Of a stretch of DNA of 36,766 nt, positions 2,494-22,262 are shown one piece after another. The DNA comes from Bacteroidales bacterium (GTDB taxonomy: Bacteria; Bacteroidota; Bacteroidia; Bacteroidales; PUMT01). The DNA is taken from the NCBI GenBank assembly GCA_007135095.1, contig SLJO01000214.1:1-36766 (forward strand), read 5' to 3'. Below the pieces are notes generated by a model. It saw only the letters and a program-made list of their open reading frames with translations, made no database searches and had not been told where the DNA came from. Position 1 is the first letter of the stretch; every line of letters begins with the position of its first letter. Made by a program: the position numbers and the translations under genes.

Positions 2494-4944
2494 ATGAGAT
2501 ACATTATAATTTTTTTAATGCTGACTTCCTGGGTTTTATGTTTCGGCCAGCCCGTGAAAACAAATTCAGGAGCTTTGCAAGGCTTTGTTTTTGTAAGAGG
2601 CTTGCAGTATGAAACAAGTAATAATATAATCAATACAGGCGATTTCGAGATTCTTGATCATCCCGTTACCAATCTGGAGTACAAATACTTCATTGATGCT
2701 ACTGGTTATCGCGCCCCGTTACACTGGGAAAACGGCATAATCCCGCAAGGAAAAGAAGAGTACCCGGTCATTTTTGTCAACCGGGATGACACTGAGGCCT
2801 ATACCTCATGGCTAACCCAAACGACCGGCCGTGTTCACAGGGTTCCGACTACCGAGGAATTTGAACTGGCTTCCCGCGGGGGGGTAATGAACCAATACCG
2901 CTACTACTGGGGGGATGCCAAGGACTTGTTAACAAGAGGAGAAGTAAACTTCAATGAAAGCGGCAACCGTGGATATGACCAGTGGGAAACCTATTTGAGA
3001 CCGGCTCGATGGGGCATGCAGAACAGCATCGGCCTTTACCAGATGACAGGGAACATCTGGCAGATCACCAGCCAGAACCGAGACCCTGCAACAGCCAGCT
3101 GGCAGTATCGCACGGAAAAACTTCATGATTTGGAACGCATTGTCATGGGTGGCAGCTGGGCCAGCCCTGAGGAATTTCTTGATTGTGGAAGGACCTTTGG
3201 CCAGTCACCGGGCATGCGAACACCTGATCTGGGTATCCGCCTGGTACGCGAACCGGACAATGAAAAATGGAGCATCGAAAAGCGGAATATTGTTGCCGTC
3301 ACCCATTCTACCGGGAAAACAGGAATTAGCTGGGCATTGCTGGAAACAGACAGGAGTGAGGTACGGTTTAATATTTACCGGTTAACCGGGTCACATCGTT
3401 CACATAACGGGATCAGGCTCAATGAGGAACCGCTCTTTTTTACATCATATCTGGATGAACATGAGATCATCGACGGAACACGTTATCAGTACAGGGTCAT
3501 CGCAGTTGATCAAAACGGCTCGGAAGGCAACCCCTCCGAATGGGCTGCCATAACAGCGGGAGAAGAAGAATACCCGGTTGTTGCAAAATTCAAACCCATT
3601 TTCCAGGAGGGAGGCATGACACCTGTTTTCGGTGATATCGAGGGCTTCGGGAAACCCGGGTGCGTAATACGCCTTGACAACGGGAACAGGGAGATGTCAC
3701 AGGACCCGGGAATACCCGTCCGGCTTGAGGCTTTCTCATATACGGGCAGGTCTTTATGGCGCAAGGATATTGCATGGCATTCCAATATTTTCGGCAGTGC
3801 CAACAACTGCCCCTTCAATGTCTGGGACATGAACGGTAATGGGAGGGCCGAGGTGATAACCCTCCTGCAGAAGGGAGATGATAATTTTCTTGCGATACTT
3901 GACGGTAAATCGGGAAAAGTTCTTCACACAACTCCATGGGACGAAATGGCGACCGACCTGTCACGTTCTTCAACCCGCATACAGATGAGCATTGCCTATC
4001 TGGATGGGATAAACCCCTCGGTTATAACCATGACCGGAATTTACGAGAATGAGATTATTTCTGCTTACGATAACGAGCTTAATAAACTTTGGACTTACGA
4101 GAGTTTTATGGAAACAAGCGGGACAGGCGGTCATAAAATAGAGATTGCCGATGTTAATAATGACGGGAAGCATGAGATTATTTATGGAACAACCTGCCTC
4201 AATAGCGACGGAACCCTGCGATGGTCGATATTCCGGCAGCACCCTGACATCATTTCCGTTTACAACCATATTCCCGAACGTCCGGGACTGGAGGTTCTTT
4301 TTATCATAGAATCGTTTATGCATGCAGGCATATACATGGTTGACGCCGATACAGGGGAGGTTATCTGGAAAAATAACCGGGAAGAAGATCCACAGTGGTC
4401 ACACGGACATGCAGGCTGGACTTCCAATATCTGGAATGGCCACCCCGGGAGTGAGAGCGTTACCAACCGCCAGGGACATGGTGACAGGAATTTTCTGGTT
4501 TTTAATGCAGATGGAGAAAGGCTGACCGGGAATTTTCCCGCCGGGATCACTCCCATTGAATGGGACGGCGATAATACCCGGGAGCTCCTGGCACAAAACG
4601 GCAGAGTAATAGGCAAGTTCAACGGAACTGAGATAGTGCCTGTTCCCGGGGAAATGCCAAATCCCGTGCCTGGTTCCTCCCTTATCATGGTAGCCGATCT
4701 TTACGGTGATTTCCGCGGAGAGATGGTTATCAGCGCCACTGATACCGACGGCCGGCCCGCTATAATGATAGTTACAGCAGCCAGCCCTATAGAAAAGCGG
4801 TTTCTTGCACCAACCTGGAAACTTGAATATAACTTGTGGATTGCGCGCAACAGGGGCGGGGGTTATGGCTCGGTGCATGAATATGAGCTCAGGGAGGCCG
4901 GGGCTGATTCTGAATTTAACGAACAAAAAATTAGTAGCAACTAA
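2494..4944 (+). CDS. Secreted protein: FGE/SUMF1-like domain + FnIII-like linker + PL11 (rhamnogalacturonan lyase)-like beta-propeller
   Basis: ORF opens at GTG 2485; ATG 2494 gives signal peptide MRYIIIFLMLTSWVLCFGQ. FGE-like motifs: HPVTNLEYKYFIDATGYRAPLHW, VHRVPTTEEFELASRGG, MTGNIWQ, IVMGGSW...LGIRLVRE. PL11-like motifs: AYLDGINPSVITMTGIYEN, IADVNNDGKHEIIYGTTCLNSDGTLRWS, PERPGLEVL, WDGDNTRELLAQNG, ADLYGDFRGEMVIS. Confidence 0.7.
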   Translation: MRYIIIFLMLTSWVLCFGQPVKTNSGALQGFVFVRGLQYETSNNIINTGDFEILDHPVTNLEYKYFIDATGYRAPLHWENGIIPQGKEEYPVIFVNRDDTEAYTSWLTQTTGRVHRVPTTEEFELASRGGVMNQYRYYWGDAKDLLTRGEVNFNESGNRGYDQWETYLRPARWGMQNSIGLYQMTGNIWQITSQNRDPATASWQYRTEKLHDLERIVMGGSWASPEEFLDCGRTFGQSPGMRTPDLGIRLVREPDNEKWSIEKRNIVAVTHSTGKTGISWALLETDRSEVRFNIYRLTGSHRSHNGIRLNEEPLFFTSYLDEHEIIDGTRYQYRVIAVDQNGSEGNPSEWAAITAGEEEYPVVAKFKPIFQEGGMTPVFGDIEGFGKPGCVIRLDNGNREMSQDPGIPVRLEAFSYTGRSLWRKDIAWHSNIFGSANNCPFNVWDMNGNGRAEVITLLQKGDDNFLAILDGKSGKVLHTTPWDEMATDLSRSSTRIQMSIAYLDGINPSVITMTGIYENEIISAYDNELNKLWTYESFMETSGTGGHKIEIADVNNDGKHEIIYGTTCLNSDGTLRWSIFRQHPDIISVYNHIPERPGLEVLFIIESFMHAGIYMVDADTGEVIWKNNREEDPQWSHGHAGWTSNIWNGHPGSESVTNRQGHGDRNFLVFNADGERLTGNFPAGITPIEWDGDNTRELLAQNGRVIGKFNGTEIVPVPGEMPNPVPGSSLIMVADLYGDFRGEMVISATDTDGRPAIMIVTAASPIEKRFLAPTWKLEYNLWIARNRGGGYGSVHEYELREAGADSEFNEQKISSN

Positions 4945-5041: not shown

Positions 5042-6169
5042 TTATCTCATGATCATTCTGAAATAATAAAGATCCGCCTGCTCGGTCCCCTCCATAACTG
5101 CACGCTCGGTGAATACAACAAGGTATTCATCTTCACCTATCGGGGCTATAGTAGGATAACCATAAAGATTCTGGTTCAAAGGGCGGTCACCATCGAAATC
5201 AAGCATGGCCCACGGGCGTCGCAGTTCATGCTGCAATGTCCAGCCATTTGGGTTGCCGAACACCTCATCAGGTCGTGCGGTGTAGATAAACAGGCTGTTT
5301 TGTTCGTCGCCGCGTGAATAGCGATCGCTGTTCAAGGCTATAAGCAGGTCGCGCTTACTGTCATAAATAAGCTGCGGTGCACATCCCCAGTGCAACTTAG
5401 GGGGAATGTTGGTCCTTGCCGGTTCGGTCCACGTCTTTCCGTTATCGAGGCTTTCCACCTGCAACAAGGGAAAACCATGCTGCCTTTCATCATCCCTGAT
5501 CAGGGCAATTATCCTGTTGTTGCCGCACCATGCTCCTGCTATCTCAGTCAATTCGACATCATTGTTTTCGGCAACAATATTACCCTTTACCCAGTTCGTG
5601 CCATCACTGCTGTACAGTATACCGTTACGATGCCTTGCATATTGCATAATGCAGTATTCACCGGCATCCGGGTTGTAAAACATTTGCCCTGTACCCTGTA
5701 TTCCAAAAAAGGCATCAGAAGTCTGCAGATCCGACCATGATTCCCCGCTATCATCACTGTAGATAAAATATTGCCCTTCAGTAACACGGCCATCGGGCAT
5801 GTATCTTCTGAAAAAGGTTACGATCCTGCCCTCTTCAGTGATGCCGCCATGGATGTTGCGGTCGTCATATTGATGACTATTATAGACTGTTTCGACTTCG
5901 CTCCATTCATCCTTCGACGGATTGTAATATATTTGCGCGATATAGCCATCAGGTCCGACATGACTGCCTTCCATACCAGGATCAAACCTGAAGATAAGAA
6001 TTATCCGGCCATCGTCAACCGATGCAAGAAAGCCTTCGCTTAGATGATCATCAACAAACATGACCGGCCTGACGGGAGATACATATAAGATACCCTCCCC
6101 GGCATGGCGATTGGTGCAGGATACAATTGACAGACACAATGCCAGTAAAGTCAAAAATGTGTTTTTCAT
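5042..6169 (-). CDS. BNR/Asp-box (sialidase-like) six-bladed propeller lipoprotein
   Basis: Lipobox leader MKNTFLTLLALCLSIVSC; Asp-box-like repeats YSDDSGESWSD, YSSDGTNW, SLDNGKTW. Confidence 0.7.
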   Translation of the reverse strand: MKNTFLTLLALCLSIVSCTNRHAGEGILYVSPVRPVMFVDDHLSEGFLASVDDGRIILIFRFDPGMEGSHVGPDGYIAQIYYNPSKDEWSEVETVYNSHQYDDRNIHGGITEEGRIVTFFRRYMPDGRVTEGQYFIYSDDSGESWSDLQTSDAFFGIQGTGQMFYNPDAGEYCIMQYARHRNGILYSSDGTNWVKGNIVAENNDVELTEIAGAWCGNNRIIALIRDDERQHGFPLLQVESLDNGKTWTEPARTNIPPKLHWGCAPQLIYDSKRDLLIALNSDRYSRGDEQNSLFIYTARPDEVFGNPNGWTLQHELRRPWAMLDFDGDRPLNQNLYGYPTIAPIGEDEYLVVFTERAVMEGTEQADLYYFRMIMR

Positions 6170-6462: not shown

Positions 6463-9384
6463 ATGAGATTAGTTTTTCATAAACATTTATTCGTTTTTTT
6501 GCTGATTCTGAATGCATTAAATTCTTCTTCGCAGGTAAAAAGCATAGGGTTGCCATCCATTGTAAACCATTTCAGAAGTGAGTACAGGGCAGGTACGCAG
6601 AACTGGAGTATTACTCAAAGTAAGAGCGGGTTCATTTACCTGGGTAACAATGACGGAATTCTGGAATATGACGGTACAAACTGGACAAATTATCCTGTTC
6701 CAAACTCATCAGTTGTAAGGTCTGTTCTGGCTGTTGGTGATACAATTTACTCCGGAGCTTTTGAGGAAATCGGTTTTCTTGCCCCTGATACTGAAGGTAA
6801 GCTCACCTATTCTTCACTGAACCATCTTATACCATCTATCTATACTGGTTTTGATGAGATTTGGAATATTTACGCAAGCCAGGGTAAAATAGTTTTTCAA
6901 TCCTATAACTATCTATTTATCCTGTCAGAAGGAGAAGTAAAGGTTATCGAACCATTAACCAGATTCAGCATGCTTCATTTGGTCAATGATCACTTTTATA
7001 TTGTTGACACAGATCACGGTTTGATGTTGCTGGAAAATGACAGTTTGCATCTTGTCAGCAATCACCCTGTATTTTTCCGGAATGAGATAAGAAACATTTT
7101 AACCCTGGATAACGGAGATCTGTTAATAGGCACTTCTAATGAAGGGTTATTCCTGTTCAATAAAGCAAGTAGCAGGATCACACCATGGGATACTGATGTG
7201 AACAAGCCCATAAAAGATTATAACCTCTATTCAGCACTGATGCTTTCCAATGGCGATCTTGCTTTTGGATCAGTTGGCAATGGTGTTTTTTTAAGCGATC
7301 AGGACGGGCAGGTCCTTCAGCATTTAAATCGCTATAAAGGGTTGCAAAACAACACTATACTCAGCCTTCACGAAGACAGGAGGAATAATCTCTGGCTTGG
7401 ACTTGATAACGGAATCGATTATCTTGAAATTAGTTCACCACTGTCATTTCTGAATTACAATTTTAACATTGAGAGTGCATATACCTCATTGATCCATAAT
7501 GGTGTTCTGTATGTTGGAACTAACCAGGGATTATACGCCAGGGAGTTTAGCGGGATTAATAATATCTTCCCTGATGCCAAAGGATTTGAGCTGATAAAAG
7601 GCACAGAAGGACAGGTCTGGTCACTTGAGGTTATCGATAATACCCTGTTTTGTGGTCATAATTTCGGATGTTTTGTAATTGAAGGGTTTGCAGCCAGGCA
7701 AGTATCCGATATCAGGGGGTTCTGGTCTTTTTTAATGCCTCCGGGAAGCAGTGAAACGATTCTGGCGGGCATCTATTCTGGTCTGGTCAGTCTGGTCAAG
7801 GACAACGGTCAGTGGGTATTTTATGATGAAGTTAAGGGTTTCCCCGAGTCCGCCAGGAGTATGTATATGGAAAATGAAAGCAACCTGTGGATTTCTCATG
7901 GATACAAGGGCTTGTTTAAACTTACCCTGAACAGTTCGCTAGACTCTGTAATTCATACTCAACTTTTCAGATCAGAATCAGGACTGCCCGAACAGTTTCC
8001 TTACAACATTCAGATTATTAATTCCGAGATGTATATTACTACTCAAGCAGGAATATTTAGTTATGATCACACGCGCAACTCATTCAGTAAACCCGGTAAA
8101 ATTATCCAAATTTTTAAGGACAAGGGTTTTATAGACAAGATACATCAGGACAAAGCCGGGAATCTCTGGTACTTTACCAACGATTATCTGGGAGTAATGC
8201 GATTGCTTGAAGATGGTAAATATATCGATATTGTGGCACCATTTTCAGCTATCAATCAAGTGCTTATTCCAGCCTTTCAAAATATATACATTCATGATTC
8301 AGACAATGTATTTATTGGATCACAAGAGGGACTGATTCATTATGACCCCAATATCATTAAAGATTACAATAGTGCTGAGGAGGTTTTTATTAAAGAAGCA
8401 ACTTTTTTTGATAAAAATAACGAGGCAATCTCCTGGTTTGCCGGAAACCTTGTGAATATCACCAATCACGAAACCAGGATAATTCCATATTCATGGAATT
8501 CTGTTATGCTCAGGTTTACCACTCCTGCATTTGAGAGCCCTGAAAAGATTCATTTCTCCTATCGTCTTATTGGCTATGATTTAAACTGGTCGCCGTGGAA
8601 CCGGGTAAACTTTAAAGAATACACTAACTTAAAAGAAGGTGACTATACTTTTCAGATTAAGGCAGTTAATGCTTTTAATGCAGAAAGCGAGATAAAAAGT
8701 TTTCATTTTACAGTTAGACCTCCTGTTTTTCGTTCACGGGTTGCTTATATTTTTTATTCCCTTATATTGGGGTTAATCATAACCGGTAACTTCTATTATA
8801 TCAGGAAAGGAATTTTTAAAACCAGAATGCGTGAAAAATTAAAACACGAAAAAAGACTCGCCCACCGGGAAAAACTCTTCAGGGAACAAACAACTCTGAG
8901 TGAAAAGGAAATTATCAATTTACGCAATGAAAGTCTCAGGAGCGAAATGAAGTATAAGAATAAAGAATTGGCAAATGCAACCCTGCACCTGATACAGAAA
9001 AACAAAACACTTAGTTACCTGAAGGAGGATCTTAATAAACTTCTTAAATCCAATCCTGCAAACATCACGGAAAAGGACAACATAAACAATCTTGTAAAAA
9101 AAATAGACAGAGACCTGCGTAACGAAAAAAACTGGATGGTGTTCAATAATTATTTTGATGAGGTGCATCAGGATTTTATTACCAGACTCAAAAGCCAGTA
9201 TAATGATCTCACACCCAAAGAACTGCGCTTATGCGCATACCTCAGGATGAATATTTCCACAAAGGAAATTGCACCACTCATGAATATCTCCGTCCGGGGA
9301 GTGGAAATAAGCCGATACCGGCTTCGGAAAAAACTTCTACTCGATCATAATATCAATCTCACAGAATTTATTATGAATTTTTAG
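6463..9384 (+). CDS. Transmembrane regulator: two-component-regulator propeller + Y_Y_Y domain + TM + coiled coil + LuxR-type HTH
   Basis: Signal peptide; repeats such as GFIYLGNNDGILEYDGTNWTNY and NNLWLGLDNGIDYL; IHFSYRLIGYDLNWSPWNRVNFKEYTNLKEGDYTFQIKAVNAFN (Y_Y_Y); TM VAYIFYSLILGLIITGNFYYI; C-terminal LTPKELRLCAYLRMNISTKEIAPLMNISVRGVEISRYRLRKKL (LuxR-type HTH). No histidine kinase or receiver domain. Confidence 0.85.
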   Translation: MRLVFHKHLFVFLLILNALNSSSQVKSIGLPSIVNHFRSEYRAGTQNWSITQSKSGFIYLGNNDGILEYDGTNWTNYPVPNSSVVRSVLAVGDTIYSGAFEEIGFLAPDTEGKLTYSSLNHLIPSIYTGFDEIWNIYASQGKIVFQSYNYLFILSEGEVKVIEPLTRFSMLHLVNDHFYIVDTDHGLMLLENDSLHLVSNHPVFFRNEIRNILTLDNGDLLIGTSNEGLFLFNKASSRITPWDTDVNKPIKDYNLYSALMLSNGDLAFGSVGNGVFLSDQDGQVLQHLNRYKGLQNNTILSLHEDRRNNLWLGLDNGIDYLEISSPLSFLNYNFNIESAYTSLIHNGVLYVGTNQGLYAREFSGINNIFPDAKGFELIKGTEGQVWSLEVIDNTLFCGHNFGCFVIEGFAARQVSDIRGFWSFLMPPGSSETILAGIYSGLVSLVKDNGQWVFYDEVKGFPESARSMYMENESNLWISHGYKGLFKLTLNSSLDSVIHTQLFRSESGLPEQFPYNIQIINSEMYITTQAGIFSYDHTRNSFSKPGKIIQIFKDKGFIDKIHQDKAGNLWYFTNDYLGVMRLLEDGKYIDIVAPFSAINQVLIPAFQNIYIHDSDNVFIGSQEGLIHYDPNIIKDYNSAEEVFIKEATFFDKNNEAISWFAGNLVNITNHETRIIPYSWNSVMLRFTTPAFESPEKIHFSYRLIGYDLNWSPWNRVNFKEYTNLKEGDYTFQIKAVNAFNAESEIKSFHFTVRPPVFRSRVAYIFYSLILGLIITGNFYYIRKGIFKTRMREKLKHEKRLAHREKLFREQTTLSEKEIINLRNESLRSEMKYKNKELANATLHLIQKNKTLSYLKEDLNKLLKSNPANITEKDNINNLVKKIDRDLRNEKNWMVFNNYFDEVHQDFITRLKSQYNDLTPKELRLCAYLRMNISTKEIAPLMNISVRGVEISRYRLRKKLLLDHNINLTEFIMNF

Positions 9385-9508
9385 CAATAACAAAAATATC
9401 AATTTCGTTATTGTGAAACTGGTCCTCCCCATTTTATTATAATTATACATAAGTATATCAGGCTTTTAGCTTTTTATTTGATGCATCTATGATGTAGTGA
9501 TTTTCCCC

Positions 9509-9540
9509 TTTGTAGTGCAGTTGATGTGTGCCTGAATTTG
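9509..9540 (+). promoter_or_regulatory. Candidate Bacteroidota promoter upstream of the PKD lipoprotein gene
   Basis: TTTG (9509-9512), 20-nt spacer, TGAATTTG (9533-9540); one mismatch to the TAnnTTTG -7 consensus; about 75 bp before ATG 9615. Confidence 0.45.
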
Positions 9541-9614
9541 GAGTTTGGTTCTTTAGCAGGTTAAATTGTGGTAAAAATTACTAACTATTTATTATTAACT
9601 AAAAAAGCTATACT

Positions 9615-11090
9615 ATGAAAACAACCATTTCTCAAATTTACAGGAAAATAATCTTTCTTCTTGGAGCATTACTTCTTGTTACTTTTGGCTCCTGCGATAA
9701 AGAAACGGAGCCGGCGCCAGAACCCATTGCGAGTTTTCAGTATGAAATCAGCGATGATAATTATCTGGAGGTTTCATTTACCAGTTTTTCGCAGAATGCT
9801 GTTTCTTATAGCTGGAATTTTGGCGATGGCGGAACTTCGACTGAGGCAAATCCTACGCATACTTATGCAGAGGCTGGTAGCTATAATGTGACGCTCACTG
9901 TAGAAAACGCTGACGGCGTACCTCATTCATTTTCTGAAACTATTGAAATTACTGATCCTGATGAAGCCCTAAAGTTGCTAACCGGTGAAACTTCGAAAAC
10001 ATGGCGGCTCTACAGGGAAGGAACAAGTATGGGTGTTGGTGAGAACATGGATAATCTTCGCGGATGGTGGTCACTTGAGAATGACGGATCTCGCCCCTGC
10101 AAGTACTTCCATGAATTTACATTCCACCTGGATGGTTCATATGTATTTGATGATAATGGATCTTTCTGGGGTGAAGGCGGTATATTCCCGGAAGAATTAG
10201 AGGGGACCTGTTTTGAAGCTGTCTCTTCCAATATGGTTAATGTGGATGGAGTAGATGTCAGCGCATGGCTAAGCGGCACTCATGCCTTTGAGTATGACCC
10301 TTCCACCGGCATGGTTACGCTTACAGGCGAAGGTGCCTGGATAGGCCTGCCCAAGGCTGGAACTGATGCCGAGGTAACGGTACCGCAAAACAATGTGACA
10401 TTTAAAATAAGTATCGAAGAGCATACCGGCTATGACCTTATGCATGTACTATTTGTATATGACTGGGGAGTTTGGGACTTCTCTTACGCTTCCTATTCAG
10501 ATCCTTCCCTTGAACCCGATGTAGTTGAAGAACAGGAGCCTGTAGTAGATCTTGAAAGCATTACTCCTGAAGAACTTGGCCACACCTTTGAGAGCGAAGA
10601 AAGTTTTGATTTGCTTGGATCATTAGGTGGTACATCAGTTATTACCCCTGGTGAAGATGATCCTGAAGATGATACTGCAACCAAAGTGGGTAAATTTGAA
10701 AGAACAAATGCTCAGTTTCAGGAGGCACAGTTGCGTGTATATCCAGAGCCCAAAAATATCCAGTTTGACAATTTCACTACAGTTTCTATTGAGGTTTATC
10801 TGCCCAGCACCAATACCTATGATCCCTTAACTAAAAAAGTTATTATTGGTTTTGGTGATGTACATACCACAGCAGAGTGGTGGACCAGATTGATTCAATA
10901 TGAATCAGATGAATTGGCATTGGATGAATGGGTGACCGTAACTTTCAACCTGGATGATCCATCATTTTCGTCCGCTGAAGGAGAAACAGTATTCGATCGT
11001 GAGGATCTGGATATGGTATTTATCCAGATCGGTGGTGGAGATCATACATCAGAAGGTACTTTCTATATACGTAATCTTATTTTTGAGTAG
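9615..11090 (+). CDS. PKD-domain lipoprotein, likely surface glycan-binding protein of the PUL
   Basis: Lipobox LLVTFGSCDKE; PKD domain (ASFQYEISDDNYLEVSFTSFSQNAVSYSWNFGDGGTSTEANPTHTYAEAGSYNVTLTVEN); position directly upstream of GH16/SusC/SusD. Confidence 0.75.
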   Translation: MKTTISQIYRKIIFLLGALLLVTFGSCDKETEPAPEPIASFQYEISDDNYLEVSFTSFSQNAVSYSWNFGDGGTSTEANPTHTYAEAGSYNVTLTVENADGVPHSFSETIEITDPDEALKLLTGETSKTWRLYREGTSMGVGENMDNLRGWWSLENDGSRPCKYFHEFTFHLDGSYVFDDNGSFWGEGGIFPEELEGTCFEAVSSNMVNVDGVDVSAWLSGTHAFEYDPSTGMVTLTGEGAWIGLPKAGTDAEVTVPQNNVTFKISIEEHTGYDLMHVLFVYDWGVWDFSYASYSDPSLEPDVVEEQEPVVDLESITPEELGHTFESEESFDLLGSLGGTSVITPGEDDPEDDTATKVGKFERTNAQFQEAQLRVYPEPKNIQFDNFTTVSIEVYLPSTNTYDPLTKKVIIGFGDVHTTAEWWTRLIQYESDELALDEWVTVTFNLDDPSFSSAEGETVFDREDLDMVFIQIGGGDHTSEGTFYIRNLIFE

Positions 11091-11105
11091 GTTTGGGTCG
11101 TTTTC

Positions 11106-11140
11106 AGAGCTATGACCCGGAAGGGTCATAGCTCTTTTTT
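11106..11140 (+). terminator. Strong intrinsic terminator/attenuator between the PKD lipoprotein and GH16 genes
   Basis: Perfect 13-bp stem AGAGCTATGACCC - GGAA - GGGTCATAGCTCT followed by a T-run, immediately before AAAAGGAGCAATAATG. Confidence 0.85.
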
Positions 11141-11153
11141 AAAAGGAGCAATA

Positions 11154-12263
11154 ATGCAATTACGGCGTCATTACTTTTATTATCTGGTTATTATTCTTGT
11201 AAATCTTTCCTGTGATAAAGCGGATTCTATTTCAACAGATGATCCATCTCATCTTATAGTTGATATCACACAATCCGAAGAAAACCCGGGGACTATATTT
11301 ATTCAGGCTACTGCTGAAAATGCCACTGAATATCATTTATACATTGGATCCGGCAATGAACCGACAGCTGTAAATTCTTCAGGGTCGTTTGAATATGAAT
11401 TTATACAGCCCGGGTATTACCAGGTTGAGGTGCGGGCTTATGGCTCTTCCGGCCGGTATATCAGGGCATCAAGGCAAATATTGGTTGACTTGAGCAGGGA
11501 TGTTCCTGTAGAGACCGGCTATATTTCACCCTTAACTTATGAAGGATATGAGCTGGTCTGGAATGATGAGTTTGATGGTACAAATATAGATCCTGCAAAC
11601 TGGGTATTTGAAACAGGTACGGGATGCCCCCAGTTATGTGGCTGGGGAAACAATGAGTTGCAGTATTACCGGCAGGAAAATGCCTGGGTAGAAGAAGGGG
11701 TTTTAACTATCGAAGCAAGGGAAGAGAGTTTTCAGGGAAGCAGGTATACCTCGGCACGGATGAAAACACAGGAAAAAAAGTCATTTAAGTATGGAAGGAT
11801 TGATATCCGGGCGTTGCTTCCAATGGGACAAGGTATCTGGCCGGCACTCTGGATGCTCGGAAATGATATAACAACCGTTGGCTGGCCAAAATGTGGTGAG
11901 ATTGACATCATGGAGATGATTGGTGGCAGGGGAAGGGAAAACCAGGTGCACGGAACTGTCCACTGGGATATTGACGGACATGTAAATGCCGGTGGATCAT
12001 ATACCAGGCAAACTGGCACTTTCGCCGATGAATATCATGTATTTACAATCATTTGGGACGAGACCACCATTAAATGGTTTGTAAATGATAACCAGTTCTA
12101 CGTAATTGATATTACACCCGGTCATATGACAGAGTTTCACCAGGAGTTTTTCTTTATTTTCAATGTGGCTGTAGGTGGGAACTGGCCGGGCAGTCCTGAT
12201 GAAACAACAGTTTTCCCTCAGCAAATGAAGGTGGATTATATTCGGGTATTTCAAAAGAAATGA
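11154..12263 (+). CDS. Glycoside hydrolase family 16 (beta-1,3/1,3-1,4-glucanase-like) lipoprotein
   Basis: GH16 signatures WNDEFDGTNIDPANWVFETG, YTSARMKTQEKKSFKYGRIDIRALLPMGQGIWPALWMLG, and catalytic motif GEIDIMEMIGG. The listed start (11112) lies inside the terminator hairpin; ATG 11154 follows AAGGAG and gives lipoprotein leader MQLRRHYFYYLVIILVNLSC. Confidence 0.9.
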   Translation: MQLRRHYFYYLVIILVNLSCDKADSISTDDPSHLIVDITQSEENPGTIFIQATAENATEYHLYIGSGNEPTAVNSSGSFEYEFIQPGYYQVEVRAYGSSGRYIRASRQILVDLSRDVPVETGYISPLTYEGYELVWNDEFDGTNIDPANWVFETGTGCPQLCGWGNNELQYYRQENAWVEEGVLTIEAREESFQGSRYTSARMKTQEKKSFKYGRIDIRALLPMGQGIWPALWMLGNDITTVGWPKCGEIDIMEMIGGRGRENQVHGTVHWDIDGHVNAGGSYTRQTGTFADEYHVFTIIWDETTIKWFVNDNQFYVIDITPGHMTEFHQEFFFIFNVAVGGNWPGSPDETTVFPQQMKVDYIRVFQKK

Positions 12264-12307
12264 TTAAATGAAGAGTTCTTCAAAATGGAACAATAATAAA
12301 TTATTAT

Positions 12308-15300
12308 ATGAAAGCACAGTTTGTCAGACTATTCCTGGTATTGGGGATTACATTATTTCCTGGTATTTTATTTGCACAGCAACATACTATAGAGGGGATC
12401 GTCAGAGATGCAGAAACAGGTGAGCTAATACCCGGGGCGGCCGTTATGGAACAGGGGACAATACATGGCACCGTCACCGATCCCGATGGAAATTTTACCC
12501 TGACCGTTTCGAGCCCCGATGCCACACTTGCAATTTCATTTGTTGGTTACCAGACAGCGGATGTCCCTGTCAATGGTCTTTCATTCATCGAAGTAAATCT
12601 TAGTGTACAGTTAACTGAGCTTGATGAGATTGTGGTAATTGGTTATGGAACACAAAAAAAGAGGGTTGTAACAGGTGCAATTTCAACAGTGAGTGCCGAT
12701 GATATTGCTGCTACGCCAACTCTTCGAATAGACCAGGCCATGCAGGGACGTACTGCAGGTGTGCAGGTAACCAATCTGTCGGGACAGCCGGGTGAAGCTC
12801 CAACGGTTCGGATAAGGGGAGCCGGTACAACCGGAAATGCTGAACCGCTTTATATAGTTGACGGAATGGCTGTTCAAAGCATAGATTACCTCAACCCCGG
12901 CGACATAGAATCAATAGATGTCCTGAAAGACGCTGCTTCAGCTGCAATATACGGGGCAAGGGCTGCCAATGGCGTAGTGCTGATCACTACCAAGGGAGGC
13001 AGTCCGGGTGTGATGAGTGTTACCTATTCAGGATACCATGGCATACAAAATGTTGCCAGAACAATTGACATTCTGGATGCCGACCAGTACCGGATGCTTA
13101 TGAATGAAGGAGCCCGGAATGCCGGTTTATCAGAACCATTTGATCTGATGGAAATTCCAAGGCATAATACAAACTGGCAGGACCATCTGTTCCAGGAAAA
13201 TGCACCAATGGCAAATCATGAATTGTCAGTGTCAGGGGGAACTGAAAACTCCACCTACGCTTCTTCAATATCATACTTTACCCAGCAGGGGATCATTGGC
13301 GGCGACAGGTCACAATTCGACCGCATGTCGGGCAGGCTTAACACCAGGCACCAGGTGAACAGTAATTTTAATTTTGGAAGCAATATTGCGTATTCACACC
13401 TCAGGCAGCGGGGTATTGCCAGCAACCAGTCATTCAACAGTGCATACAGCAGCGCCCTGAACCTGGATCCGCTAACACCGCTCTTTGTAGAGGATGAAGA
13501 CATTCTCAACACCTTTCCCTATGCAACTGAACCTGTTGTCACAAGCCCCGATGGAAGAGTATACGGAATTTCCAGGCATGTTGGTGCTGAAATTGTGAAT
13601 CCCCTTGCTTTACTGGAGATCCAGACCGGGAGAAACCGGTCAGATAAAATTGTCGGTAATGTTTTTGGCGAACTTGAAATCATTGAGGGGTTAAAACTTC
13701 ATACAAGCCTCGGGATCGATCTGGCATATTCCCTGAATGATTCCCACACGCCACTGTTCTATCTGAATGGAGCGCAGCTGAATGTTGATAAAACAAACGT
13801 TTCCAAAAACATAGGCAGGTTCTATACCTGGCAATTTGAGAATACCCTTAACTATTCCAGGCAGGTCGATGACCACAATTTCTCCGTTCTTGCCGGAACC
13901 ACTGCCAGCAAGTTTAACTTTGAGGACTTGTCCGGATTCAACGCTGATGTCCCGATTAATGATCCCAATCATGTATATCTCAATATGGCAACCGATACAG
14001 TCTGGACTGCATTCGGCGGTGCCGCTCATTCTTCCCTTTTGTCAGCATTTGGTCGTATAACTTATGACTATAAGAGTAAGTATTCTTTTACCGGGATTAT
14101 CAGAAGGGACGGATCATCAAAATTCGGTCCCAACACCAGGTATGGTATTTTCCCTTCATTAGGTGTTTCTTGGGTGCTCAGCGATGAGGATTTTATCCCG
14201 GACCTGGGCCCGGTGAATTTTCTTAAGTTAAGAGCTTCCTGGGGTATTAATGGTAACCAGGAAATAGGCAACTACCAGTTTATTTCGGTAATGGATAAAA
14301 GCCGGGGATATATCTTCGGCGGGGGCAGAATGTTTGGGGCATCTCCTGCGTATATCGAAAATGCCGATATTCACTGGGAGGAATCAGAGCAGTTTAACAT
14401 TGCCCTTGATGCAGGTGCCTTCAATAACCGGCTTATCGGATCGATTGATTATTACGTCAAAACCACCGGCGGATTGCTTGAAGTAATTCCAATTCCTGCA
14501 CATGTCGGCAATAGTCCCCCGTTTGCAAATGTCGGGAGCGTCCGGAACAGAGGCATTGAACTGGCAATTGACTGGCGGCATGTTACAAACAGGTTACGTT
14601 ACTCAGTGGGCATTAATGGTGCATACAACCAGAACAGAATGACCAGAATAGGCAATGAAGAAGGAGTGCTGCCAGGTGCAACCTGGGCAGTTGCCGGCAT
14701 GGTAACGCGGACTGAGCTGGGTAAGCCCATTGCCCATTTCTGGGGCTATAAGACCGATGGTATATTCCAGAGTATGGAGGAGGTTTATCAGCACATCGGT
14801 CCGACCGGGAGGCAGCTTCAGCCCAGAGCAAGGCCCGGCGATGTGCGGTTTGTGGATGTTAACGGAGATGGTGTTATCAATGAAAATGACAGGACTATGA
14901 TCGGTAATCCGACTCCTCCGCTGACCTTTGGTATGAATGGCTCGGTAGAATACAGTCAGTTTGATATCTCAATGTATTTTGTCGGAAGCTATGGAAACGA
15001 TGTTTTTAACGGAGCGCAAAGGCAGGACCTTCGCTTTACCAACAGATCAACCGCCATTCTGGATCGCTGGACCGGTGAAGGCACTTCTTCGACTGTTCCC
15101 AGATATACATGGATTGATGTTAACAACAATTACCGGGTATCAGACCTGTACATTGAAGACGGTTCCTTTATAAGGTTAAAGAATATTCAGGTTGGTTATA
15201 CTTTTAGCGACAGGTTTCAAAACCGGATTAATGCAACTAATCTGAGAATTTATGCCTCTGCTGAAAACCTGCTGACAATTACCCAGTACACTGGTGCTGA

Positions 15301-15400
15301 TCCTGAAATCGGTGCCATGAGTCCATTTGATATCGGTATTGACAGGGGAATTTATCCACAGGCCAGAATCTGGCGGATGGGAGTAACCATGACATTTTAA
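12308..15400 (+). CDS. SusC/RagA-family TonB-dependent outer membrane transporter
   Basis: Carboxypeptidase-regulatory-like N-terminus (IEGIVRDAETGELIPGAAVMEQGTIHGTVTDPDGNFTL), TonB box/plug (LDEIVVIGYGTQKKRVVTGAISTVSADDI, VLKDAASAAIYGARAANGVVLITTKGG), C-terminal aromatic strand. Confidence 0.97.
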   Translation: MKAQFVRLFLVLGITLFPGILFAQQHTIEGIVRDAETGELIPGAAVMEQGTIHGTVTDPDGNFTLTVSSPDATLAISFVGYQTADVPVNGLSFIEVNLSVQLTELDEIVVIGYGTQKKRVVTGAISTVSADDIAATPTLRIDQAMQGRTAGVQVTNLSGQPGEAPTVRIRGAGTTGNAEPLYIVDGMAVQSIDYLNPGDIESIDVLKDAASAAIYGARAANGVVLITTKGGSPGVMSVTYSGYHGIQNVARTIDILDADQYRMLMNEGARNAGLSEPFDLMEIPRHNTNWQDHLFQENAPMANHELSVSGGTENSTYASSISYFTQQGIIGGDRSQFDRMSGRLNTRHQVNSNFNFGSNIAYSHLRQRGIASNQSFNSAYSSALNLDPLTPLFVEDEDILNTFPYATEPVVTSPDGRVYGISRHVGAEIVNPLALLEIQTGRNRSDKIVGNVFGELEIIEGLKLHTSLGIDLAYSLNDSHTPLFYLNGAQLNVDKTNVSKNIGRFYTWQFENTLNYSRQVDDHNFSVLAGTTASKFNFEDLSGFNADVPINDPNHVYLNMATDTVWTAFGGAAHSSLLSAFGRITYDYKSKYSFTGIIRRDGSSKFGPNTRYGIFPSLGVSWVLSDEDFIPDLGPVNFLKLRASWGINGNQEIGNYQFISVMDKSRGYIFGGGRMFGASPAYIENADIHWEESEQFNIALDAGAFNNRLIGSIDYYVKTTGGLLEVIPIPAHVGNSPPFANVGSVRNRGIELAIDWRHVTNRLRYSVGINGAYNQNRMTRIGNEEGVLPGATWAVAGMVTRTELGKPIAHFWGYKTDGIFQSMEEVYQHIGPTGRQLQPRARPGDVRFVDVNGDGVINENDRTMIGNPTPPLTFGMNGSVEYSQFDISMYFVGSYGNDVFNGAQRQDLRFTNRSTAILDRWTGEGTSSTVPRYTWIDVNNNYRVSDLYIEDGSFIRLKNIQVGYTFSDRFQNRINATNLRIYASAENLLTITQYTGADPEIGAMSPFDIGIDRGIYPQARIWRMGVTMTF

Positions 15401-15411
15401 TCAAACAAGCT

Positions 15412-16962
15412 ATGAAGAGATACTTATTTAATACCGCAAAAGCATTTATTGTTGTATTGCTTTTAACTGGTTGCGATGATTTTCTGGACCTGCATCCTCT
15501 TGACCAGGAAGTTTCATCAAATTTCTACCAGACAGAAGATCATGCTATGCAGGCCCTGGTTGCCGTTTACGATGTGTTGACCTATCAGTCAACTCCTGGT
15601 GTTGCATGGGCTCCATTTATTACGGTGTCTGATATACTTTCTGATGACGCCTATGCCGGTGGTTCTGATGCAAATGACGGGATGCAGCAGCAGGAGATGA
15701 ATACTTTTAATATTCCAACAACCAACACAATTGTCCATTCCATCTGGATAAAGAATTATATTGGCATTTACAGGGCAAATCTGTTTTTGGAAATTATTGA
15801 TGACATACAGGCAACCAGCAGTTTTAAGGCCAGGACCATAGCAGAAGCCAGGTTCCTGAGAGCTTATTTTAATTTTGAACAGGTTCGCTTCTTTGAAAAT
15901 ATACCACTGCTTACATCTACCATAAAAGGGCCTTCAGAATACGAACAGGAACAAAATACACCCAAAGAGGTTTACGATCAGATTGCTTTGGATCTTGTAG
16001 AGGCAATTCCCGGTTTACCGGGAAGTGTCCCCTCAGCTGAGGCAGGGAGAATAACCAAATGGGCAGCCCAGGCATTGCTTGCAAGGGTTTACCTGTTTTA
16101 CAACGGAGTTTACGGGGGTGACCTGAATGCAGGAGCCACCACGGTTAACCAGGCACTTGTTATGGGATATCTTGAGGATTTGATTGAAAACAGTGGTCAT
16201 GACCTGTTTCCCGATTACGGGCACAATTTCAGTCTGGTGGGAGAATTCGGAATAGAATCGGTTTTTGAAATATCTTACGGTGATACGCCTCCCTGGTGGG
16301 ACTGGGGTTATGTAAGGGGTGGCAATGGAAACCTGTCTGCACAAATGCAGGGGCCAAGGGTAACCGGTTCCCAGAAATGGAACCGGGGATGGAGTTTTGC
16401 TCCGGTAAGCCATAAGCTTGCACTTGATTTGGCTGATGATCCGAGATTTGCGTATACCATTCTGACTGAAGAGGAACTTGACGGCAACTTAGTCAAAGGC
16501 TATCAGCATACCGGGTATTTCTCCAAAAAGTACAGCTCCGATGCAGAGCACTGGGGGTCCGGCGGGCAGTTTGAACTCAACAGAACCTGCAATCACCGTG
16601 TGATCCGCTTTTCCGATGTGCTCCTTATGGCAGCTGAACTCGGAAGTCCCAATGCGCAACAATACCTCGATCGCGTCAGGGCCAGGGTCGGGTTAACAAG
16701 TGTTCCTGCAACCCCCGAGAATATTTTCCGGGAAAGAAGGCTGGAATTATCCCTTGAGGGAATCAGGTATTACGATGTGATCAGACGCGGACTGACATAT
16801 GCTGCACAGGAATTGACACATTCTGTACGGGGGCCCAATTATATGGGTGACCAGGAAATATTCTCTGTTACATTCAATCCTGCCATCAAAGGGTTTCTGC
16901 CTGTTCCACAAACAGAGATTGACCTTTCTGCAGGAGTACTTGTCCAAAACGATGGTTATTAG
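15412..16962 (+). CDS. SusD/RagB-family outer membrane lipoprotein
   Basis: Lipobox VVLLLTGCDDFLDLHPLDQEVSSNFYQTEDHA; EARFLRAYFNFEQVRFFENIPLLT; C-terminal RERRLELSLEGIRYYDVIRRG. Confidence 0.97.
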   Translation: MKRYLFNTAKAFIVVLLLTGCDDFLDLHPLDQEVSSNFYQTEDHAMQALVAVYDVLTYQSTPGVAWAPFITVSDILSDDAYAGGSDANDGMQQQEMNTFNIPTTNTIVHSIWIKNYIGIYRANLFLEIIDDIQATSSFKARTIAEARFLRAYFNFEQVRFFENIPLLTSTIKGPSEYEQEQNTPKEVYDQIALDLVEAIPGLPGSVPSAEAGRITKWAAQALLARVYLFYNGVYGGDLNAGATTVNQALVMGYLEDLIENSGHDLFPDYGHNFSLVGEFGIESVFEISYGDTPPWWDWGYVRGGNGNLSAQMQGPRVTGSQKWNRGWSFAPVSHKLALDLADDPRFAYTILTEEELDGNLVKGYQHTGYFSKKYSSDAEHWGSGGQFELNRTCNHRVIRFSDVLLMAAELGSPNAQQYLDRVRARVGLTSVPATPENIFRERRLELSLEGIRYYDVIRRGLTYAAQELTHSVRGPNYMGDQEIFSVTFNPAIKGFLPVPQTEIDLSAGVLVQNDGY

Positions 16963-17126
16963 GACTGTCTAAGGCAATTTGAGATTTTTCCGGACGACAG
17001 GTTAGTTTAACAATTGCAGAAGCACCAATTGCAATTAAATGCTCGGAAACCTGAAATCATGATCCATTGCTGACAAATAAACAGGGAGAAGAACTGCAAT
17101 TACATGCTTATGAACTATGACCAGAA

Positions 17127-18695
17127 ATGAATAAAAAGGCCTACACTGTCTTTATCTCACTCGTCGTTGCTCTTGGTGGTTTTCTGCTTGGGTTTGAAAG
17201 TGCAGTTATTTCAGGTGCAACTCCTTTTTACCAGGGAACATTCGGTCTTTATCCCAGGTCCATGCTCATTGGATTTTCTGTAAGTTCGCTGATTTTGGGA
17301 GTTATCATCGGTAATATTGTTGCAGGGAGATTGGCCGACCGTTTTGGTCGTCGTAAGATACTAATGTATACTGCAATCCTGTTTATAATCAATGCAGCCT
17401 TTAATGCATTTGCATACGATATCATTGGTTTTATAAGTGGTCGTCTCATTGGCGGGTTAGGTGTGGGAATGGCTATTCTCATTGCTCCGATGTACATTGC
17501 AGAAATTGCTCCCCGAAAACTTCGTGGTACTTTGGTCACCTTCAGTCAGCTCAACATTGCACTCGGATTTTCTATTGCGTTATTCTCGAATTACTACTTC
17601 CAGCAAACCATATCCGACCCCGTCTTTAAATGGAGGATTATGCTGGGTGCAGAGGCCCTGCCCGCACTGCTATACTTAATCTTACTGTTTTTTATACCCA
17701 GAAGTCCAAGATGGTTACTGCAAAAAGGACTGGGAGATGAGGCACAAAGCGTGCTTGTGAAAATTCATGGGCCGGAACAATCTGTATTTGAGCATAGCGA
17801 AATTATCAATAGCCTCAACCAGGAGGATATAAAAGAAAACGCCCGCTGGGCTGATGTTTTCTCAAAAAGAATGAAAACGGTTCTGATAATTGGTTTTGGA
17901 ATCGTTTTTTTTCAGCAGATAACAGGTATCAGTGCAATCTTTTACTATGCGCCAATGATCTTCGAGATGGCTGGCGGGGGCATGGATGCTTCATATTTAC
18001 AGGCTGCAATCCTGGGAGTTACATTTGTGGTTATGACTGTTGTGGCAATCCTGCTTATTGACAGGTTGGGCCGCAAGCCCCTTCTTTATACAGGTGCTGC
18101 AGGTATCTGTATTTCACTTGCCATAGTAGGCTTATCTTTTGAAAACGCAAAGTACACCATTGATAGGAAATCATTGGGAACCCTGATGGAAGAGGTTGTA
18201 CAACTGGATGTTGATGAACATCATGTTGAAAATATTATGCGATTAAACCAATTAAAGGATAATGCCTTTGGCAGTGAGCTGTCATTTTTTCGTTTAATCA
18301 AACAAACGGTGGGTCTGGATACCTACAACAGTTTTAAAGGGATAATATTGAAGCATTCTATCAGTGTTAATCCCTTGTGGATTCTACTCGGGCTGGTAAT
18401 GTTTGTAGCCTCTTTTGCCATTTCACTAGGGCCTGTAATGTGGACATTGCTCTCAGAAATTTTTCCCAATAAGCTTCGTGGTCTGGCAATATCCGTAATG
18501 GGTTTCTGGAATTCCATTGTGAGTTACTTTGTAGTTATTATTTTTCCTGTACAGCTGGAGTATATAGGATCAACCGCAACCTTTTTTATCTTTTCATTTT
18601 TTGGGTTGCTGACCCTTTTCTTCGTGCGGCGATACGTTCCTGAAACAAAGGGAAAATCATTGGAGGAACTCGAATCTGAACTTGTAAAACAATAA
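17127..18695 (+). CDS. Sugar-porter family MFS transporter
   Basis: GRLADRFGRRKIL, PRKLRGTLVTFSQLNIALG, PRSPRWLLQKG, FFQQITGISAIFYYAP, DRLGRKPLL, LGPVMWTLLSEIFPNKLRGLAIS, PETKGKSLEELE. Confidence 0.93.
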   Translation: MNKKAYTVFISLVVALGGFLLGFESAVISGATPFYQGTFGLYPRSMLIGFSVSSLILGVIIGNIVAGRLADRFGRRKILMYTAILFIINAAFNAFAYDIIGFISGRLIGGLGVGMAILIAPMYIAEIAPRKLRGTLVTFSQLNIALGFSIALFSNYYFQQTISDPVFKWRIMLGAEALPALLYLILLFFIPRSPRWLLQKGLGDEAQSVLVKIHGPEQSVFEHSEIINSLNQEDIKENARWADVFSKRMKTVLIIGFGIVFFQQITGISAIFYYAPMIFEMAGGGMDASYLQAAILGVTFVVMTVVAILLIDRLGRKPLLYTGAAGICISLAIVGLSFENAKYTIDRKSLGTLMEEVVQLDVDEHHVENIMRLNQLKDNAFGSELSFFRLIKQTVGLDTYNSFKGIILKHSISVNPLWILLGLVMFVASFAISLGPVMWTLLSEIFPNKLRGLAISVMGFWNSIVSYFVVIIFPVQLEYIGSTATFFIFSFFGLLTLFFVRRYVPETKGKSLEELESELVKQ

Positions 18696-18700
18696 CTATT

Positions 18701-20023
18701 ATGAAATCCTGTCCGATATTATTATTTCTCATCATGTCAGTTATAGTGACTTCGTATGATTTCAAAATAAATGACAGTACAGATCCTATGAAATATGGCC
18801 CGTCAGTCGTTGAATTAAGAATGACTCAGGGCAGGTACCGCCTGTTTGTCAATGGGGAAGAATTCTGGGTTAAAGGGGCCGGATGTGAGTTTGGGCCCTG
18901 CGACCTGGTCAAATTGCACGGAGGCAATTCTTTTCGTACCTGGCGAGTAGATAACGGCATTAGCACCGGCAGAGAGATTCTTGATCAGGCCTGGGAAAAT
19001 GGCCTTATGGTTATGATGGGACTGGATGTTGCAAGGGAAAGACATGGATTTGATTATAACGACGAGGCTGAGGTAGCCAGACAACTCGAGAATATTAAAC
19101 GGGATGTAATTGAACTTAAAGATCATCCGGCATTACTTGGTTGGGGTATAGGAAATGAACTTAATCATGGTTATACCAATAAAAAGGTTTGGAACGCTGT
19201 TAATGATATAGCCAAAATGATCAAGGAAGTTGACGGCAATAGTGTGGTTACTACCATGCTAGCCGGTATTGGGCAGGATGAGGTGGAATACATCCGCGAT
19301 AATTGTCCTAGCCTTGACTTTATCTCAATTCAAATGTATGGAGATATAATAAACCTGGAACAACGGCTTGCAGAGGCCGGATATGATGGTCCGTATTTAG
19401 TGACCGAATGGGGCGCTACGGGTCACTGGGAGGTGCCAGCAACCGATTGGGGCTCACCTATTGAACAGTCTTCTTCAGAGAAAGCGGATGCCATCAGAAT
19501 CAGGTATGAAAAGGCTATTCTTTCCGATCCTGCAAATTGTTTGGGATCCTATGTATTCCTTTGGGGCCAGAAGCAGGAACGGACTCCTACCTGGTATGGC
19601 CTGTTTACTGAAAACGGAGAAAAAACAGAGGCTGTTAATGTTATGGAGTATTTGTGGACTGGAAAATGGCCGGAACAAATGACCCCCAGAATTTTAAATG
19701 CAGAAATTATTAATAAAGGAGGGCGATTTGATAATGTCATGCTGGAGGAGCAGTCCTTTTATTCTGCAGTTATAGAGGTCGAATATCCGGGTGATGGCAA
19801 AATTTCTGCCAGAGCAGAGATTCTTCCTGAACCAGTAGAATTAAGTGATGGTGGTGATTTTGAGCAAAGGCCACAGGCAATCGATGGACTGATAGAGTCT
19901 GCAACCCCCAATGAGATCGTTTTCAGATCTCCCTCTCAAAAAGGAGCATACCGCTTGTTTATCTATATTACAGATGATAATTTCAATACAGGGACTATTA
20001 ATATTCCATTCTTGGTTATCTGA
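18701..20023 (+). CDS. Clan GH-A TIM-barrel glycoside hydrolase (GH2-TIM-like or GH158-like) with C-terminal beta-sandwich
   Basis: Acid/base motif GWGIGNELNHG, nucleophile-like YLVTEWGATGHW, GSYVFLWGQKQERTPTWYGLF; starts 6 bp after the MFS stop. Confidence 0.7.
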   Translation: MKSCPILLFLIMSVIVTSYDFKINDSTDPMKYGPSVVELRMTQGRYRLFVNGEEFWVKGAGCEFGPCDLVKLHGGNSFRTWRVDNGISTGREILDQAWENGLMVMMGLDVARERHGFDYNDEAEVARQLENIKRDVIELKDHPALLGWGIGNELNHGYTNKKVWNAVNDIAKMIKEVDGNSVVTTMLAGIGQDEVEYIRDNCPSLDFISIQMYGDIINLEQRLAEAGYDGPYLVTEWGATGHWEVPATDWGSPIEQSSSEKADAIRIRYEKAILSDPANCLGSYVFLWGQKQERTPTWYGLFTENGEKTEAVNVMEYLWTGKWPEQMTPRILNAEIINKGGRFDNVMLEEQSFYSAVIEVEYPGDGKISARAEILPEPVELSDGGDFEQRPQAIDGLIESATPNEIVFRSPSQKGAYRLFIYITDDNFNTGTINIPFLVI

Positions 20024-20747: not shown

Positions 20748-22262
20748 TCATGCTTCGTCTGGAGAATAGAGTACTCCCCCGGTAATATGTTCAATCTGCA
20801 CTCCTGCAAGCTGGCCCCAGGCACGAATGTCGTGAAGGTGTTTTCCATATATGAGCACGTTGTGGTGTCCGCGAATATCCAGCACATCGGCAACATCATC
20901 CATTTGCATTTCAAAACTTGTGCGGCAACCTCCCACTCCATCTCCCGGTCTCGTATCCAGATTGCGCAAAATCGTTCCTGTTGCCACATGTATCCTGTCT
21001 GATGCAAGGAACTTAAAGACCGTTGCAGGCTGATTTTCCCTGAACAATACCTGTGGAGCGGTACCCCAGTCGGACTCATGATGACTTCTAAGCAGGTAAT
21101 TCTCTTCCGGCTTATCAAAACCATCCATTTTAGTTGGTGCAACACAGTGTGATCCCCCGTATGTGTTATGTACATTAAATGAAGTGGGGTTATGCATAAA
21201 ACCGGGTTTATTGAAAAGATAACTGGATAGCATGAGTGACAGGGCTGCAGTCACATCCCCTTCGCAGCCACCGCAGGTTCTTTCATTTAATAGCTGCATG
21301 TATGCAATGCATGGTGGGGGGGATGTTCTTTGCTCTATCAGGTCAAGGCAGCGCATTGTGAGTGAATGGCAACCGGTCTCCTTCAAAAGCTGTCGACTGG
21401 CCAGATAGCATCTGGCCCCTTCAACTACTTCATCAACAGTGGGTTCTACAACATCCTTGGCATTACTTATGTAGCTCCTGGCAATAGCTTTGACATCTTC
21501 AGAATCGGCGGTAGCACGGTATGCTTCCAAATACTGGTCAAAAGGCATATGATGGAGTGTGGTACCCACAGGTTCAAGCTTCTCAATTCTCTCCTCTGTA
21601 TTGCTTATCACGGCTAAACGGGTATTCTTCATTTGCCATAAAGCCTTTTGCATGCGCAAACCATGTCCCATCCACTCATTATGCTGAGCTGTAGCCATGA
21701 AAAAATTTGGTGTATTCCTGTAGCGGCTGTGAACATGGGTCATGGAAGTACCGCGCGGACTGAAAACCACCACGGGTAATTTGCCTCGTTGTTTAAGAAA
21801 ATAATTAAGGAGAGGATTCCTTCTCTCCAATAAAGCAAAAATATCCTGAATTACGATGAGAGTTCCGTCGGCATTGTCAGATTGAGCCGTCTTCAGGAAT
21901 ATGTCAATGGATTCGTTACTATTGAGGGGTTCGACATCTATATCAAGAATCACTTTTAAATCAAGATTTGCCTCCTCCAGAATATTCGTATACAATTCCT
22001 GGCTTTCAGCAGGGTCATATGCCGCACCCGGCCAGCCCATCCAGTTTTTATCAAATTCCCGCATGAACCCAACTCTGATACGGGGTTTAACATCACCGTC
22101 TCCCGGCATAACCGGCAGGTCAATAACATTTCGAATACTCTCATTAAAAGTACAACCATAAAATCCCATGAGGGTAGCACCTCCAGCAAGCGATAAACGG
22201 GTAAGGAACTGCCTTCTGTTAAGGCTTGAGCAACAGGAAGCTTTTTTTCCTGGATTTTTCAT
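20748..22262 (-). CDS. L-fucose/L-arabinose isomerase-fold (sugar isomerase superfamily) protein with Tat/lipoprotein leader
   Basis: Leader SLNRRQFLTRLSLAGGATLMGFYGC (twin arginine + lipobox); body IRVGFMREFDKNWMGWPG..., ADGTLIVIQDIF, CGGCEGDVTAALSLMLSSYLFNKPGFMHNPTSFNVHNTYGGSHCVAPTKM resembles the FucI/AraA superfamily. Confidence 0.65.
   Translation of the reverse strand: MKNPGKKASCCSSLNRRQFLTRLSLAGGATLMGFYGCTFNESIRNVIDLPVMPGDGDVKPRIRVGFMREFDKNWMGWPGAAYDPAESQELYTNILEEANLDLKVILDIDVEPLNSNESIDIFLKTAQSDNADGTLIVIQDIFALLERRNPLLNYFLKQRGKLPVVVFSPRGTSMTHVHSRYRNTPNFFMATAQHNEWMGHGLRMQKALWQMKNTRLAVISNTEERIEKLEPVGTTLHHMPFDQYLEAYRATADSEDVKAIARSYISNAKDVVEPTVDEVVEGARCYLASRQLLKETGCHSLTMRCLDLIEQRTSPPPCIAYMQLLNERTCGGCEGDVTAALSLMLSSYLFNKPGFMHNPTSFNVHNTYGGSHCVAPTKMDGFDKPEENYLLRSHHESDWGTAPQVLFRENQPATVFKFLASDRIHVATGTILRNLDTRPGDGVGGCRTSFEMQMDDVADVLDIRGHHNVLIYGKHLHDIRAWGQLAGVQIEHITGGVLYSPDEA

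Follow-up and report, generated by a model that had tools for sequence, protein, structure and literature searches.

A rare fusion of an FGE-like domain lacking the FGE cysteine pair with a PL11-like propeller in Bacteroidota

The window analysed here spans positions 1 to 36,766 of contig SLJO01000214.1 of a Bacteroidales genome (assembly GCA_007135095.1). At positions 2494-4944 of the + strand it carries an open reading frame of 816 amino acids, which starts with ATG at 2494, ends with the stop codon at 4942-4944, contains no internal stops and is backed by full-length homologues; translation could also begin at the in-frame GTG at 2485. By eye, the N-terminal stretch MRYIIIFLMLTSWVLCFGQ (2494-2550, + strand) resembles a signal peptide. 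Two of the homologues described below have lipobox-like starts (FFSC in L017, ATSC in L019) and the remaining ones resemble plain signal peptides; judging from these N-termini, the protein is probably secreted or surface-located.

The neighbours in the window encode a DoxX-DUF362 protein and a BNR protein, and beyond them lie a Y_Y_Y-LuxR regulator and a GH16/SusC/SusD cluster; this neighbourhood is no pectin locus. In the upstream gene (84-2123), DoxX is joined to DUF362 in one open reading frame; near a group B PL11 gene (see below) in genome G005, L026:10978-12507 encodes a protein that begins similarly. The BNR sialidase-like gene (5042-6169, - strand) is convergent with the fusion gene, and in genome G029 a BNR sialidase-like gene adjoins the fusion gene divergently (L027:14461-15684). 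The glycan-utilisation cluster (6463-20023) comprises a Y_Y_Y/Reg_prop-LuxR regulator without a kinase domain, a PKD protein, GH16, SusC, SusD, a sugar transporter and a GH2-like gene. A 504-aa open reading frame at 20748-22262 (- strand), adjoining a GH9-like gene, has no Pfam match at 0.001.

Three domains follow the N-terminal stretch, all on the + strand. Residues 45-252 (2626-3249) match the FGE-sulfatase family PF03781 (E 1e-30, 107.7 bits against a cut-off of 23.3), and the nearest solved structures to the first 250 residues in a PDB sequence search were ToxD (7.6e-17), SUMF2 and FGEs. The initial annotation had read an FGE fold in this part, which these matches bear out, although it also spoke of a C-terminal FGE-like segment; the FGE-like part is N-terminal. 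Residues 264-343 (3283-3522) match the rhamnogalacturonan I (RG-I) lyase N-terminal beta-sheet domain (PF18370 RGI_lyase, 2.9e-7, 31.2 bits against 27.8). A PL11-like propeller occupies residues 360-793 (3571-4872), with PF21348 RGL11_C matching residues 463-786 (E 1.2e-50, 173 bits against 27) and phmmer finding YesW (1e-37), 4CAG (5e-35) and YesX (2e-33) in the PDB. The RGL11-like strings quoted in the initial annotation all occur in the translation, and both domain sets of the architecture that it proposed score above the curated Pfam cut-offs. A generic FG-GAP/VCBS propeller, which it had named as the outcome that would speak against PL11, was ruled out: FG-GAP_3 and FG-GAP fell under their cut-offs, the PL11 matches in Pfam, the PDB and Foldseek were strong, and YesW was the best solved structure.

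Structure models gave the same assignment. A full-length AlphaFold model (pTM 0.67; propeller pLDDT mostly 75-95) matched YesW at 7e-33 in Foldseek, and the modelled propeller matched YesW, YesX and 4CAG at about 1e-32 each. The FGE-like domain, modelled alone from its own alignment (pTM 0.82), adopted the FGE fold, with Foldseek matches to ToxD at 1e-13 and to FGEs at about 1e-12. The domain-match scores from Pfam, phmmer and Foldseek are far beyond chance. In the full-length model, confidence is low for the latter half of the FGE-like domain, and no contacts between the domains are therefore claimed from it.

The FGE-like domain lacks the cysteines of true FGEs. In these enzymes the motif GGSYLCHDSYC carries the two copper-binding cysteines. 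Its counterpart, located by alignments with homologues and true FGEs, is GGSWASPEEFLDC (aa 219-231; 3148-3186, + strand), and in the profile alignment GGSYLCHDSYC faces GGSWASPEEFL. The first cysteine position is S224 (R in the homologues) and the second is L229; both are substituted in all four full-length proteins, and the GGSxxCxxxxC pattern is absent. The single obvious cysteine of the domain that had been pointed out earlier is indeed its only one, C231, which is invariant in the clade and lies two residues past the second FGE cysteine position. Because both copper-cysteine positions are substituted, FGE oxidase chemistry is excluded on sequence grounds. Of the earlier suggestion of a binding rather than an oxidase role, the non-oxidase half stands, and binding is what we infer; we identified no binding site on the domain. 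A sulfatase maturation factor was ruled out by the missing cysteines, despite 30 sulfatase matches in the genome of the window. A T9SS GldK identity was also ruled out (NCBIfam TIGR03525, 45 bits against a cut-off of 350), and contig C168 of the same genome carries a separate FGE-fold lipoprotein-like open reading frame with a GldK-like placing.

The FGE/SUMF1 family includes several non-oxidase members, namely ToxD, PvdO, SUMF2, PorK/GldK and Treponema TvpA. Within the genus of the window, the genome G004 has an open reading frame (L024:9-2450) in which two BNR sialidase-like stretches flank an FGE-like domain, the second case of an FGE fold joined to a fold of the carbohydrate-enzyme type; it lies near a contig end and its N-terminus may be cut. 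The genome of the window itself encodes two proteins of 1220 and 1117 aa (L067:15980-19639 and L068:1605-4955), each with HZS_alpha in the middle and an FGE-like domain at the C-terminus; both have cytochrome/MauG-type genes nearby, and a run of sulfatases is also present in L067. From these sequences, the FGE fold appears to serve as a module more than once in the genus.

Active sites were compared in an alignment of 36 PL11 domains with YesW. Ochiai et al. reportedly described the YesW residue roles in 2007 and 2009, and each residue number matches the correct amino acid in the YesW sequence. We take His363, His399, Asp401 and Glu422 to be the Ca2+ ligands, Arg452 and Lys535 to stabilise the carboxylate, Tyr595 to stack, and Asn152, Asp172, Asn532, Gly533 and Thr534 to contact rhamnose. 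The Arg, Lys, Tyr and Ca2+ residues have the same roles in PL11 homologues (PMC8787155). All four active-site Ca2+ ligands are kept in the fusion protein, as H547 (4132-4134; H363 in YesW), H583 and D585 in an H-P-D motif (4240-4248; H399 and D401) and E606 (4309-4311; E422), all on the + strand as are the sites below, and they are invariant in YesW and in 36/36 aligned domains, the fusion clade included. The carboxylate clamp is not kept. In the loop H637-G-H639-A640-G641 (4402-4416), A640 takes the position of Arg452, which varies as A/H/Y/A in the fusion clade, and the same loop holds two clade-invariant histidines, H637 and H639. N723-P-V-P-G727 (4660-4674) replaces the YesW strip N-N532-G533-T534-K535, with NPxPx in the clade against NNGTK and G727 (G/N/D) at the position of Lys535. 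The counterpart of Tyr595 is Y791 in G788-G-G-Y791 (4855-4866), which the alignment places one residue off.

Other parts of the propeller are specific to the clade. A clade-invariant charged strip, NRxGHxDR (aa 658-665; 4465-4488), faces gaps or small residues in canonical PL11s, and H429, H610, R629, H637, H639, R659, H662, D664, R665 and R785 are among the charged residues invariant in the clade and absent from the other PL11 groups. The first calcium-blade motif is degenerate in the window protein (DIEGFGKPG). Within the clade, 198 of 434 propeller columns are invariant (58-72% identity) against 68 of 209 columns in the FGE-like domain (49-57% identity), where the fold has several invariant polar and aromatic positions; no other part of the fusion is as constrained as the propeller.

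Three PL11 groups were found in the YesW alignment: canonical PL11s, a group B and the fusion clade. The canonical proteins keep the Ca2+ ligands, Arg452, Lys535 and Tyr595 throughout. Group B, from Bacteroidota, keeps the Ca2+ ligands and Tyr595, is without the N532-K535 strip and mostly lacks Arg452; it comprises L018:3634-5343, L025:377-2707, L026:7765-9474, L028:1946-3907, L056, L057 and L058 (support 94/95). The L025 member has a weak CBM_4_9 match, and that of L026 lies among sulfatase-like open reading frames. In the midpoint-rooted maximum-likelihood tree, the fusion clade forms a single branch (support 100/100) that lies outside both other groups, its stem measuring 2.45 substitutions per site. 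Because the group B proteins also mostly lack the Arg452/Lys535 clamp, the clamp marks the characterised PL11 subgroup rather than the whole fold family. The rhamnogalacturonan lyase assignment of the initial annotation is not established by the PL11 residues that it had proposed to check: the calcium ligands are retained, but the clamp and Asn532-Thr534 are replaced in a deep separate clade.

A scan of GTDB genomes with six exact peptide patterns, which finds only close relatives because the patterns are exact, returned three loci with the same architecture: L017 (Dysgonamonadaceae), L018 (Cytophagaceae SCN 52-12) and L019 (Bacteroidales Prado084). An order-level search added G029 (L020) and found L019 again as G306. 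The proteins of L017, L018 and L020 are unbroken and share 51-53% identity with the window protein along the full length. That of L019 (8001-10223) is split over three frames, consistent with either a decaying gene or pseudogene, or an assembly error. The architecture search that had been proposed therefore found the same fusion in three intact homologues and a broken one in other Bacteroidota, and because intact full-length homologues occur in unrelated MAGs, an assembly artefact or chimaera was ruled out. Within the genus, the fusion was found only in the genome of the window, and PL11-like proteins without it in 2 of 12 other genomes. No further fusions were found in samples of about 400 genomes of the class and phylum, nor, beyond those named, in the families of G306 (117 genomes) and G029 (7 genomes), and none was found on plasmids. 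A second PL11-like gene in the genome of the window (G000:C190:20379-20805, L029) is seemingly broken, with two frames and one stop.

The FGE-PL11 architecture is thus rare and scattered, a distribution that horizontal spread or repeated loss could explain; the G+C content of the fusion gene, about 0.50 and slightly above its flanks, is no more than a weak hint. No description of the fusion was found in the literature searched, which covered few subscription journals, and it is apparently undescribed within that literature, although domain databases may list the architecture. Its recurrence in a few distantly related bacteria marks the fusion as a genuine, if uncommon, variant within a known enzyme family, PL11.

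Gene-context analysis of the homologues points to pectin. In L017, the fusion gene follows SusC/D-like genes and is flanked by genes for GH28 and a beta-helix protein, with a gene for a GH88/GH105-GH28 protein after them. In L018, SusC/D-like genes, a group B PL11 and a PelZ-like protein (a strong match to pectate lyase PelZ, below the PelZ cut-off) precede the fusion gene, and a weak oligogalacturonate-lyase match follows it. By their gene content, both are clear pectin loci. In G029, an alpha-L-rhamnosidase gene is within the same 20 kb as the fusion gene, and the three neighbourhoods together support a pectic substrate.

We favour, with moderate confidence, the reading that the protein is a secreted or surface Ca2+-dependent PL11-type lyase with altered subsites, probably acting on a uronate-containing glycan, that carries the FGE fold as an accessory module. 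The beta-sheet domain and propeller would form the lyase, which would probably cleave a pectin-type glycan by beta-elimination, the retained metal site holding and polarising the uronate. The carboxylate clamp would have been rebuilt, and because the residues for the rest of the substrate are changed, the enzyme may act on something other than the RG-I backbone. By analogy with PorK/GldK, the FGE fold without the copper cysteines would be an N-terminal binding or docking module. The lyase reading is supported by the invariant Ca2+ ligands, the highly conserved propeller and the pectin loci of two homologues. Counting against it are the lost YesW clamp and strip, the non-pectin locus of the window, the single GH88/GH105 match in its genome and the degenerate DIEGFGKPG motif.

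This reading leaves sugar and protein binding by the FGE-like domain undivided, and overlaps with a possibility that we hold tentatively, namely that the domain serves to attach the enzyme to a protein partner (SusC/D, the T9SS or another enzyme) and not to sugar. FGE itself binds protein when it recognises sulfatases, which fits such a role. The FGE fold of PorK, without the cysteines, is likewise a docking module and protein-docking hub (PMC12421860). However, the neighbourhoods of the window, G029, L017 and L018 differ, and no partner gene is common to these loci.

The main rival to the lyase reading is a catalytically dead propeller, with both domains only binding, so that the protein would bind glycans at the surface or scavenge substrate for a pectin locus. 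The loss of the clamp and rhamnose strip agrees with it, as do the two lipoprotein-like homologues and the separate PL11 without an FGE-like domain two genes upstream in L018, which could do the catalysis. We nevertheless regard it as rather unlikely, given that the four Ca2+ ligands are all invariant and the propeller is conserved more than the FGE-like domain; because the related group B also loses most of the clamp and keeps the calcium site, the lost clamp may reflect a change of substrate and not inactivity. It is unlikely that the FGE-fused propellers form a new PL subfamily or family whose target is not the RG-I backbone but another glycan, cleaved with the PL11 calcium and clade-specific charged residues such as H637, H639, R659, H662, D664, R665 and R785, and whose FGE fold is a novel kind of carbohydrate-binding module. 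That the FGE-like domain has another enzyme activity, PvdO-, EgtB- or ToxD-like, is quite improbable: ToxD and PvdO are among its closest solved relatives, it has a number of invariant polar and aromatic positions and NCBIfam gives weak sub-threshold scores, but these are far under the cut-offs (PvdO 33.6 bits against 500, EgtB 30.6 against 360), the stretch N-terminal to the fold is too short to house the DinB-like half, where EgtB has its metal site, and such chemistry has no evident substrate in a lyase polypeptide.

If the lyase reading is correct, an FGE fold without the cysteine pair joins the accessory modules of polysaccharide lyases, and a deep PL11 branch with the calcium site kept and the substrate clamp changed would be a natural experiment on the residues that PL11 catalysis needs. 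It also calls for caution in annotation, as the label 'SUMF1/formylglycine-generating enzyme' on such fusions tells nothing of sulfatase activation.

Compared with known systems, the fusion shares domain order, propeller fold and four Ca2+ ligands with PL11 (YesW and YesX of Bacillus subtilis, 4CAG of B. licheniformis), and has a Tyr near the YesW Tyr595 position, shifted by one alignment column. In contrast, it is only about 25-27% identical to these enzymes, has an extra N-terminal FGE-like domain, replaces Arg452, Lys535 and Asn532-Gly533-Thr534, and forms a separate clade. Group B resembles it in its calcium ligands, in the absence of the N532-T534-K535 strip and mostly of Arg452, and in a His in the loop matching H637/H639, but has no FGE-like domain, has Tyr595 in register and is about 27-31% identical. 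To the FGE/SUMF1 family (PF03781) the fusion is alike in sequence and fold, at about 18-25% identity, and differs in being joined to a lyase-type propeller and in lacking the copper cysteine pair.
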